64,000 nucleotides of DNA from Prevotella sp. (GTDB lineage: Bacteria > Bacteroidota > Bacteroidia > Bacteroidales > Bacteroidaceae), in NCBI GenBank assembly GCA_017462915.1, contig JAFTQG010000012.1, positions 25,426-89,425 on the forward strand. Reading direction: 5' to 3'. This document shows, in pieces, positions 24,842 to 31,996 of the stretch; position 1 is the first letter of the stretch; each line of letters begins with the position of its first letter. Position numbers and translations under genes: made by a program. The notes beneath the pieces were generated by a model. It saw nothing but the letters and a program-made list of their open reading frames with translations, was not told where the DNA came from and did no database searches.

Positions 24842-24931
24842 CAGGCTGATTCTGCACGGCGTCGTGCGGTTTTTGCTTGTAAAGATCCGGGATGATGTTA
24901 TTATTGACGTTATGGCTGGCGTTGATAGCAA

Positions 24932-26284: not shown

Positions 26285-26289
26285 GGTAT

Positions 26290-26442
26290 GCGGTTTTTCG
26301 GTTAGGCGGTTATACGATTATACGGTTATACGATTATACGGTTGTGCGGTTATACGGTTTTACGGATATTACTCTTCCTGTAACTATAAGCCAAGAACCA
26401 ATATCCGCATAACCGCAAAACCGTATAACCGCAAAACCGAAA
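26290..26442. repeat. Inverted 8-bp-period array between MATE and trpA
   Basis: Left, octamers GGTTATAC/GATTATAC/GGTTGTGC/GGTTTTAC (about 26300-26362). Centre, the core GGATATTACTCTTCCTGTAAC (26364-26384, one element of 20 or so bases). Right, ATCCGCAT-AACCGCAA-AACCGTAT-AACCGCAA octamers (26402-26440). The two sides are complementary and can fold back, fitting a bidirectional terminator between convergent genes. Confidence 0.85.
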
Positions 26443-26443
26443 A

Positions 26444-27220
26444 TCATTCCGCCAGAGCCACCATCAGCCTGTCAAGAGCTTCGTCGGCGTTACGGCTTTC
26501 GTTGAGCAGAGTCACGAACTTAGAGCCTATGATTGCTCCGGCAGAGTACATTTGCGCGCTCTCCAGTGTCTGCCTGTTGCTTATTCCGAAGCCGGTCATC
26601 AATGGGTTGCGCAGTCCCATGTCATTGATACGTCTGAAATATTCCAGCCGACTGTCGTCGAAAGACTGCTGTGCACCTGTTGTGGCGGCAGATGACACCA
26701 TATAAAGGAAGCCTTCCGTATTGCTGTCGATGAGGCGTATGCGCTCTTCGGATGTCTCTGGTGTTATGAGCATTACTATCCTTATGCCGTATTTGTCGGC
26801 GACAGGCTTTATCTTTGCCATATAGTCGCTGAACGGCAGGTCAGGGATTATCGCTCCGCTTACTCCGCTGTCGGCACATGCGCGGCAGAAATCCTCGATG
26901 CCGTACTGCATGATTACGTTAAGATAGCCCATGAGTATCACAGGTATGTCTATCTCGTCCTTTGCCTCCTTCAGCTGGTCGAATATCTTCTGCAGGGTCA
27001 TGCCGTTTCTCAGGGCTTTTGTCGCGGCATCCTGTATCACGGGGCCGTCGGCCATAGGGTCGCTGAAAGGTATTCCCACTTCCACCATTGATATGCCGTG
27101 ACGCTGCATTGCACGTATCACGTCGGCAGTGTCCTCTGCTGTAGGGCAGCCTGCACAGAAATACAGGGACAGGAGCTTCCTGTCTTTATTGTCTGCGAAT
27201 AGTCGGTTGATTTTATTCAT
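26444..27220 (-). CDS. trpA: Tryptophan synthase alpha subunit
   Basis: A 258-residue TIM barrel of normal length. It cleaves indole-3-glycerol phosphate to indole. Visible residues include the catalytic Glu in MVEVGIPFSDPMADGP and the Asp in IIPDLPF, plus the MVSSAATTGA loop and GFGISNRQTL phosphate site. It is the last gene of the trp operon, 18 bp after the TrpC-TrpF chimera. Nothing in it looks degraded. Confidence 0.96.
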   Translation of the reverse strand: MNKINRLFADNKDRKLLSLYFCAGCPTAEDTADVIRAMQRHGISMVEVGIPFSDPMADGPVIQDAATKALRNGMTLQKIFDQLKEAKDEIDIPVILMGYLNVIMQYGIEDFCRACADSGVSGAIIPDLPFSDYMAKIKPVADKYGIRIVMLITPETSEERIRLIDSNTEGFLYMVSSAATTGAQQSFDDSRLEYFRRINDMGLRNPLMTGFGISNRQTLESAQMYSAGAIIGSKFVTLLNESRNADEALDRLMVALAE

Positions 27221-27238: not shown

Positions 27239-27904
27239 TCACAAAATTATTTGTGCTTGGTTTTGTATATTCGTTTCGTCTGCTTTCTTCTGTAAGTCTG
27301 CCAGCTTACCTATGAATCTTCTCACGGCTTCGGCATCCTTGCAGGCAGGAGCGGTCTCGAACTTTGAGTTTATGTCTATGCCGAGCATCATCGGGTGGTG
27401 TATATGCATGACACGGCTGGCATCGTCAGAGCCTATCCCTCCGCTGAGAAGGAAAGGCCTGTTGCCGTCGTATGCGTTGATGATCGTCCAGTCGAACTGT
27501 CTTCCGCTGCCTCCTGATGTCTCGCATCTTGTGTCAAAAAGGAACAGGTCCACGCAGTCTTCATAGCGGCGGAATGTCTGCATATCGTCTGCATTGCCTA
27601 TGCTTATCGCTTTCATTATCTTGATGTCTTGGCGTACTTGCCTTGCGACAGAGCTGCGGAGCTCGCGTATCATGGCAGGACTCTCGTTGCCATGAAGCTG
27701 CAGTATGTCAAGGCGGTAGTCTATGGAGGTGCTGATGATGCCGCTTCCCTCCATTATCGCCTTGCTCATGGATGCTGTCGGTACTGTTTCTCCAAGAATC
27801 ATGTCCTCCACCTGACGGCGGATGTCCTTTTCTGTCAGTATCTTCTTGAAGCGCTCCACTTCAGTACGCTTGTGGGCTGTTATCTCGTTCAATATATCTT
27901 TCAT
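27239..27904 (-). CDS. trpC'-'trpF: Chimeric TrpC(N-term)-TrpF(C-term) ORF
   Basis: One 221-codon frame joins parts of two enzymes. Residues 1-58 (MKDILNEITAHKRTEVERF to SGIIS) are the N-terminus of indole-3-glycerol-phosphate synthase, stopping just before the EFKRRSPS active-site strand. From about residue 59 (YRLDILQLHGNESP onward) the sequence is phosphoribosylanthranilate isomerase, with LFDTRC (catalytic Asp), LLSGGIG and GIDINSKFE. Missing are about 200 residues of the TrpC barrel and about 60 of TrpF, including the KVCG cysteine. Neither activity should survive. The junction is near 27727-27735. The start is 9 bp after trpD and the stop 18 bp before trpA, as expected for the ancestral pair. 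Confidence 0.85.
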   Translation of the reverse strand: MKDILNEITAHKRTEVERFKKILTEKDIRRQVEDMILGETVPTASMSKAIMEGSGIISTSIDYRLDILQLHGNESPAMIRELRSSVARQVRQDIKIMKAISIGNADDMQTFRRYEDCVDLFLFDTRCETSGGSGRQFDWTIINAYDGNRPFLLSGGIGSDDASRVMHIHHPMMLGIDINSKFETAPACKDAEAVRRFIGKLADLQKKADETNIQNQAQIIL

Positions 27905-28917: not shown

Positions 28918-29541
28918 TCAGTGTTTTATCCAGTTTTCCATCATTTCTCTGCCGTCAGTCGTCAGCACGCTCTCGGGATGAAACTGCAGTCCTCTTATGT
29001 CGAGTGTCCTGTGGCGCAGTGCCATGATATGCCCCTCGTCGCTTTCTGCCGTTATCTCCAGACAATCGGGCAGGTATTCCCTGCTCACCACCCACGAATG
29101 ATACCGTCCCATGGTAATGCGGCGCGGAAGTCCATTGAACATATAGTCATTGCCCAGCTGTGTCCCTTCTGTCGCAATGCCATGAAACACACGGTCGAGA
29201 TTGGCAAGTCTGCCGCCGCAACACTCAGCCTTTTCGCCTTCGATGCTGATCCTTTCCGTCAGCGACCTTATGGCGTCGTGTACGTGGCAGTCATCATCTA
29301 TGTCACGCTCCTCACGGGTGCTGTCGGGCAGTGTGATGATGGCTTTGCCGTGGTCTATCGCTACCTGTGCCATAGGACGCACGCAGATGAACGAACGGCT
29401 GTTGTTACGGTCGTGGTAGTCGCTGCTTTCCATCAGCACGCTCTGCGGATACATGTCGCGCAACCTCATGTATACGCTCACAGGGGTATGCATGTCGGCA
29501 AGCATCGTCCTGGTTTTTGTGGTGTAGTTAAAAGTTTCCAT
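28918..29541 (-). CDS. trpE'-'trpG: Chimeric TrpE(N-term)-TrpG(C-term) ORF
   Basis: One 207-codon frame. Residues 1-109 (METFNYTTKTRTMLADMHTP to EGEKAECCG) are the N-terminal, Trp-binding part of anthranilate synthase component I, including the MESSDYH motif. Residues 110-207 (RLANLDRVFHGIATEG to FHPESVLTT and WIKH) are the C-terminal half of the glutamine amidotransferase TrpG, keeping the catalytic His in QFHPESVL. Lost are about 350 residues of TrpE with the whole chorismate site and about 90 of TrpG with the Cys nucleophile. The junction lies near 29208-29222. The start codon overlaps the trpB stop by 14 bp, as in an intact trpBE junction. Confidence 0.87.
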   Translation of the reverse strand: METFNYTTKTRTMLADMHTPVSVYMRLRDMYPQSVLMESSDYHDRNNSRSFICVRPMAQVAIDHGKAIITLPDSTREERDIDDDCHVHDAIRSLTERISIEGEKAECCGGRLANLDRVFHGIATEGTQLGNDYMFNGLPRRITMGRYHSWVVSREYLPDCLEITAESDEGHIMALRHRTLDIRGLQFHPESVLTTDGREMMENWIKH

Positions 29542-31302: not shown

Positions 31303-31743
31303 ATGAAAATGAGTGTGATAGAAAGATGTTATGACTATGAGGCACTGACGGCGGTATGGTATGCGTCGGTCAGGGCAACACATGATTTCCTGACAGAGGT
31401 GGATATGGAGTATTATCGGCGCCGGATACCGCGTGATTATATGCCTCATGTAGAGCTTTATGCCATCAGGGATGAGAGAGGACGTTGGTCTTCCTTTATC
31501 GGAATAAGCAGCGACATGATAGAGATGCTGTTTGTCCATCCTGACGAGATGGGCAGAGGGCATGGCTCGCGTCTGCTGAAATTTGCTGTAGAGGAGAAAG
31601 GTTTACGCAAGGTTGATGTCAACGAGCAGAACAAGCGTGCCTTGGAGTTTTACCTGAGGCACGGATTCTCTGTCGTCGGGCGTGACGCTACGGACGGTGA
31701 AGGCAAGCCGTACCCGATTTTGCATATGGAGAAGAAAATGTGA
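31303..31743 (+). CDS. GNAT-family N-acetyltransferase
   Basis: A 146-residue protein with the GNAT core: IEMLFVHPDEMGRGHGSRLL, where V-HP-x-x-x-GRGHGS is the acetyl-CoA pyrophosphate loop, followed by KVDVNEQNKRALEFYLRHGF, the standard last strands. It transfers an acetyl group from acetyl-CoA to an unknown small molecule or protein amine. An ATG at 31309 is an alternative start. It is a single-gene unit between repeat-rich gaps. Confidence 0.85.
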   Translation: MKMSVIERCYDYEALTAVWYASVRATHDFLTEVDMEYYRRRIPRDYMPHVELYAIRDERGRWSSFIGISSDMIEMLFVHPDEMGRGHGSRLLKFAVEEKGLRKVDVNEQNKRALEFYLRHGFSVVGRDATDGEGKPYPILHMEKKM

Positions 31744-31787
31744 TTAGGTAATACCTTGCAAATCAATATGTTGTAATTTATATTGGG

Positions 31788-31866
31788 ATGGGTCACCTTT
31801 CACAGGTCAAAAGGTGATACTTTGATGTGTGAAAGGTGACCTTTTTCATGACGAACCGTCATCCTT
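31788..31866. repeat. GGTSACC 22-bp-period cluster C
   Basis: GGTCACC (31791), GGTGATA (31813), GGTGACC (31835) and a degenerate CGTCATC (31857) keep the exact 22-bp pitch. It lies after the GNAT stop codon. Confidence 0.8.
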
Positions 31867-31899
31867 TATCTGAGCGTTGTGGTTTCTTGTTTTTGTCAG

Positions 31900-31996
31900 T
31901 AACCGCAATTTCCGCCTGACCGCCCAACCGCGTAACCACACGACAACCGTCCTTAACTGCCTGACCGCACGACAACCACAAAACCGTCCCAACCCC
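31900..31996. repeat. Degenerate AACCG/GACCG oligomer block
   Basis: Units such as AACCGCAA, GACCGCCC, AACCGCGT and CAACCGTCC recur with 7-9-bp spacing before the purA promoter. The pitch is less regular than in other arrays. The surrounding 383-bp gap otherwise holds only cluster C and the purA promoter. Confidence 0.6.

Follow-up and report, generated by a model that had tools for sequence, protein, structure and literature searches.

Probable recent loss of tryptophan biosynthesis in a Prevotella lineage, with two in-frame chimeric genes left in the trp operon

In the trp operon of a Prevotella genome trpC and trpF as well as trpE and trpG are each represented by one in-frame chimeric reading frame. 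We consider it likely that this arrangement reflects a recent and lineage-specific loss of tryptophan biosynthesis by two deletions. Going by the genes that are left, the cell probably no longer makes tryptophan from scratch, an ability which the closest relative that we found retains. The operon lies in the 64-kb stretch of DNA that was analysed (the window), which is part of contig C43 of a genome of 2.93 Mb in 59 contigs with a completeness given as 99.97%.

The two chimeric reading frames

On the minus strand the gene order is trpB, trpE::trpG, trpD, trpC::trpF, trpA, and the spacing between the genes is tight. The features are, by position in the window:

26444..27220, minus strand: trpA, full length, 258 aa, above the cut-off of TIGR00262 (NCBIfam)
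27239..27904, minus strand: trpC::trpF chimera, 221 aa, in-frame TrpC and TrpF sequence
27735..27739, minus strand: trpC::trpF join, 5 shared bases ATCAT, 830 bp absent compared with the sister genome
27914..28912, minus strand: trpD, full length, 332 aa, above the cut-off of TIGR01245 (NCBIfam)
28918..29541, minus strand: trpE::trpG chimera, 207 aa, Anth_synt_I_N at residues 16-102 and GATase at residues 108-205
29216..29226, minus strand: trpE::trpG join, imperfect repeat with 9 of 11 bases matching, 3 of them exactly shared, 1336 bp absent compared with the sister genome
29528..30736, minus strand: trpB, full length, 402 aa, above the cut-off of TIGR00263 (NCBIfam)

A sequence-only reading had proposed an in-frame TrpC-TrpF chimera at 27239-27904, and the assembly indeed contains it, as judged by the reading frame, a TrpF profile match and matches to TrpC N-termini. 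The 221 residues consist of TrpC residues 1 to about 57, followed in frame by TrpF from about residue 61. The shared ATCAT at the join encodes residues 56-57; the sister TrpC reads GSGII-AEFKRRSPS at this place, the chimera reads GSGII-STSIDYRLDILQLHGNESP, and the corresponding sister TrpF sequence is EIIITAMDYRLDILQLHGNESP. In a protein search of genus genomes the TrpC N-termini of the relatives align inside chimera residues 1-58, which agrees with the boundary of the TrpC part given in that reading. The TrpF part had been said to start with LQLHGNESP at about residue 59; this has to be corrected, as the motif begins at residue 68 with TrpF sequence already before it. The Pfam TrpF profile (PRAI, PF00697) covers chimera residues 58-198 with its positions 65-191 of 193 and scores 79.8 bits, well above its cut-off of 22.7, whereas no TrpC model, such as that of the barrel (IGPS, PF00218), matched the chimera in Pfam at E<=0.1 or in NCBIfam. 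The NCBIfam equivalog test for TrpF is non-discriminating, because not only the chimera (best score 110.7 against a cut-off of 216) but also the full-length TrpF of the sister (157.7 against 216) falls below it.

The catalytic residues and roles assigned to TrpC and TrpF allow a prediction of what has been lost. The N-terminal segment of TrpF with the KVCG cysteine, which we take to be a catalytic residue, is deleted in the chimera; KVCG stands within the first 14 residues in 30 of the 32 TrpF reading frames listed, and the remaining two have KICG in one case and a start further upstream in the other. The alignment shows that the conserved aspartate of FDT is retained, as are the segments SGGI and GIDINS. 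Thus, the claim that both active sites are missing stands for the TrpC barrel and for KVCG, but the TrpF site is incomplete rather than absent. The chimera should supply neither the TrpC nor the TrpF reaction, because its TrpC part ends in the first strand and its TrpF part is without the cysteine segment, and its most likely role is none as an enzyme. A natural bifunctional TrpCF enzyme was considered and can be ruled out, as both domains are incomplete.

In the trpE::trpG chimera Anth_synt_I_N and GATase each score above the Pfam cut-off. This chimera lacks the chorismate-binding domain as well as the first half of the TrpG-type glutaminase. A curated RNA leader was also considered and rejected, since Rfam at its gathering thresholds gives just one tRNA in the window.

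Comparison with relatives and with the rest of the genome

The closest relative found is the MAG Prevotella sp. SC0317_S2_2 (G060, in the following the sister genome), with about 90-94% DNA identity in BLAST pieces of the operon. One of its contigs (C207) carries trpB, trpE, trpG and the beginning of trpD, and a second one (C107) carries the remaining trpD, trpC, trpF and trpA; apart from the contig break inside trpD its trp genes are full length. The record JAIDEM010000195.1 of the same MAG is identical to C107 over 7862 bases. The outgroup genome G144 has seven trp genes, all separate and full length, and is 80% identical across trpB and the beginning of trpE. From alignment offsets against the sister the deletions measure 1336 bp (E/G) and 830 bp (C/F). 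The latter agrees with the deletion of about 0.8 kb that had been proposed to have joined trpC and trpF in frame, both of which are full length in the sister and, in agreement, in the outgroup; that reading had also spoken of a second deletion, and trpE and trpG do bear the other one. By parsimony, both deletions appear to be derived and later than the split from the sister genome.

This comparison covered 20 of the 64 kb, with all gaps >100 bases listed; about 5 kb below window position 24930 are without collinear counterpart. Over the ~15 kb that are collinear the trp deletions are the sole gaps of this size within genes, with one near-exception that reaches the last 15 bases of the reading frame 31303-31743. 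At 31728-31981, between this frame and purA, the sister has ~7.2 kb of extra sequence (C207:3806-11011). The convergent trpA and MATE genes are separated by arrays of an 8-base CGGTTATA-like unit (26285-26444), which are opposed in direction and together make up an imperfect inverted repeat; short stretches related to these arrays match many sites of the sister genome.

Intact copies of trpC or trpF elsewhere in the genome would contradict the proposed loss, and none was found by Pfam profiles in the whole assembly. Zero matches were obtained in the assembly for IGPS and likewise for Chorismate_bind (PF00425), and PF00697 is above cut-off only at the trpC::trpF chimera; each of the three profiles was positive in 14 of 14 control genomes. 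PF00425 is found in nine of ten genus genomes, the exception being the genome under study. Chorismate synthase is present in all ten and therefore chorismate may still be made by the common aromatic pathway. With trpA and trpB kept and IGPS and Chorismate_bind absent, the gene content is that of an auxotroph with indole salvage. When ten genomes were searched for tryptophanase with the broad family PF01212, the matches in this genome were weak (best E 1.6e-7).

Two further candidates were rejected. A spare intact TrpF is ruled out at the level of profiles, as two additional matches to PRAI, one on contig C58 and one on C21, are weak and below cut-off. The one on C21 lies in a 132-aa TrpF-like reading frame (L003, 263-661, minus strand) without KVCG; it scores 20.5 against 22.7 bits and crosses a TGA, and the frame is possibly a decayed TrpF paralogue. 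The sister has a second Chorismate_bind gene (L130, 784-1863, minus strand, contig C128, 359 aa). The loss of this second chorismate enzyme by formation of another chimera is ruled out, as the gene has no counterpart in the genome studied: on contig C1 (L139) collinearity with the sister stops before the gene and different genes lie beyond.

The genus was searched with both chimeric proteins. The trpC::trpF protein matched 52 of 60 genus genomes, including its own, and only its own genome spans both pieces, so that the chimera is found in 0 of the 59 others. The trpE::trpG protein matched 330 of 398 genus genomes, and among the matches listed only its own genome spans both pieces; of the near-complete genomes 148 of 176 matched, and the 28 unmatched ones pool loss and divergence. 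Among the titles and opening lines of abstracts listed, the literature yielded no natural TrpC-TrpF or TrpE-TrpG deletion chimera and no Prevotella trp operon.

Origin of the joins and alternative explanations

At the C/F join the five exactly shared bases are reached in 0.7% of 20,000 random trpC/trpF joins, whereas its best 11-base window, with 6 matches, is not unusual (14.5%). The E/G join behaves the other way round: its best window of 9/11 matches is reached in 0.15% of random joins and its 3 exactly shared bases in 5.6%, which is not unusual. Each join thus exceeds random joins on one measure only. These short similar sequences suggest that the deletions arose by slippage or end joining. 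Chimeras formed during amplification also typically have short shared sequence at their joins, and the joins are known from one assembly of one genome of the species. Both points would fit an artefact of library PCR, of whole-genome amplification or of assembly, with the true operon being intact. Under this explanation, however, it would be a coincidence that both joins hit one pathway. Moreover, the ~15 kb collinear with the sister hold no comparable gap within genes except the one at the last 15 bases, profile searches place the missing domains on none of the other contigs, and the remaining operon genes are without frameshift relative to the sister. The shared stretches would also seem too short for misleading an assembler. 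An intact operon is therefore improbable in our view, and an artefact of the chemistry unlikely as the source of the joins.

Alternatively the deletions could be real and the frame kept by selection, with trpD and trpA still being translated and the pathway being pared to tryptophan synthase. Both joins are in frame, they spare trpB, trpD and trpA, and the genes are tightly spaced; when the outgroup operon was given deletions of these sizes at random positions, 10.8% (1336 bp) and 10.4% (830 bp) of the positions spared these three genes and were in frame. This random-placement test was made after the fact. The fairer figure is 1 in 3 for each join, because with a given gene pair the frame follows from the size of the deletion, and hence 1 in 9 for both. 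In addition, trpD has been retained without obvious use, and purifying selection on trpA or trpB is not stronger in the window lineage. For the latter comparison substitutions were polarised with G144; between 3 and 24 sites per piece, at which the outgroup agrees with neither genome, were left out, and the sister trpD, which is interrupted by a contig break, was counted as two pieces. In trpB, trpD and trpA the window lineage has 31 silent and 13 changing substitutions and the sister lineage 65 silent and 24 changing ones (p 0.84). It is possible that selection has filtered out polar damage. We are rather doubtful, though, that the pair of in-frame, non-polar deletions is a trace of selection during pathway loss, leading stepwise toward tryptophan synthase with downstream translation unbroken, and we regard frame-keeping by selection in general with the same reserve.

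A further proposal is that the trpC::trpF protein is able to fold and either has gained a function or has retained a residual one. Its frame is open, the dN/dS between window and sister is 0.16 and 0.30 for its two pieces, and 27 invariant alignment columns are kept, the chimera itself being a row in that alignment. Yet the dN/dS signal may mostly predate the deletion, the cysteine segment and the first parts of TrpF as well as nearly the entire TrpC barrel are absent, and none of the 59 other genus genomes that were searched has the chimera. Such a function is extremely improbable. The chimera pieces show 16 silent and 16 changing substitutions in the window lineage compared with 21 and 12 in the sister (Fisher p 0.32), and p is 0.09 when they are compared with the other trp genes inside the window lineage. 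At most this is a hint of relaxed selection, which would fit a recent loss. The silent divergence between window and sister is 0.19-0.29, with 0.52 for the second part of trpD. Of four neighbouring genes, purA (0.236) and the reading frame 31303-31743 (0.189) have higher dN/dS values than the MATE gene (0.073) and hisS (0.042).

Thus, we prefer a recent loss of the pathway by two deletions. It is supported by the two deletions hitting one pathway, by the full-length genes of sister and outgroup and by the profile searches of the assembly; against it stand the lack of a clear relaxation of selection on the chimera pieces and trpD, which remains full length though it is useless without the other steps. 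The deletions of 1336 bp and 830 bp would each have occurred between short similar sequences and would have cost trpE-trpG and trpC-trpF, respectively, their catalytic parts; what remains is the operon trpB-(E::G)-D-(C::F)-A, with two in-frame chimeric reading frames among genes that are otherwise full length. Tryptophan or indole would then be required from outside, as the gene content suggests, and TrpB together with TrpA could still convert indole and serine to tryptophan. The event as such is ordinary gene decay, and what is unusual is how tidily both remnants have stayed in frame. The pathway appears to have been captured soon after its loss, and a sister of ~90-94% identity is available for mapping the events. 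The case also calls for caution when nutrient needs are predicted from genomes: both chimeras pass Pfam cut-offs (PRAI in one, GATase and Anth_synt_I_N in the other) and therefore a simple annotation could score TrpF, TrpG and even TrpE as present, although the cell is probably unable to make tryptophan.

Known fusion enzymes and tryptophan auxotrophs

In having TrpC followed by TrpF in one frame the chimera resembles the TrpCF fusion enzymes, among them PDB 1pii (452 aa), which we take to be the E. coli protein. Full-length TrpC-TrpF fusion genes are also present in a MAG called uncultured Prevotella (L036, 4954-6453) and in Marseilla massiliensis An824 (L040, 4966-6462); in genome G053 the two matches fall within frames with a stated length of 505 aa. 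The fusion enzymes hold both complete domains, and L036 and L040 are each about 500 aa long, whereas the chimera of 221 aa keeps ~57 TrpC residues and a TrpF that lacks its first part.

TrpE-TrpG fusion enzymes have been reported in several bacteria (PMC2395257). They have, like the trpE::trpG chimera, TrpE followed by TrpG in one frame; the chimera, in contrast, has kept of TrpE just the N-terminal domain and of TrpG just the C-terminal half.

Tryptophan is given as the most prevalent predicted auxotrophy in a catalogue of the human gut, with 63.9% of genomes (PMC10689445). Predicted tryptophan auxotrophs that have TrpA and TrpB but no other enzyme of this pathway have been described among gut bacteria (variant A1, 14 strains; PMC9026213). 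This variant shares with the operon described here the absence of the upper pathway, the retained tryptophan synthase and the possible use of indole. Unlike variant A1, the present genome has also kept trpD, and its lost genes persist as in-frame remnants.
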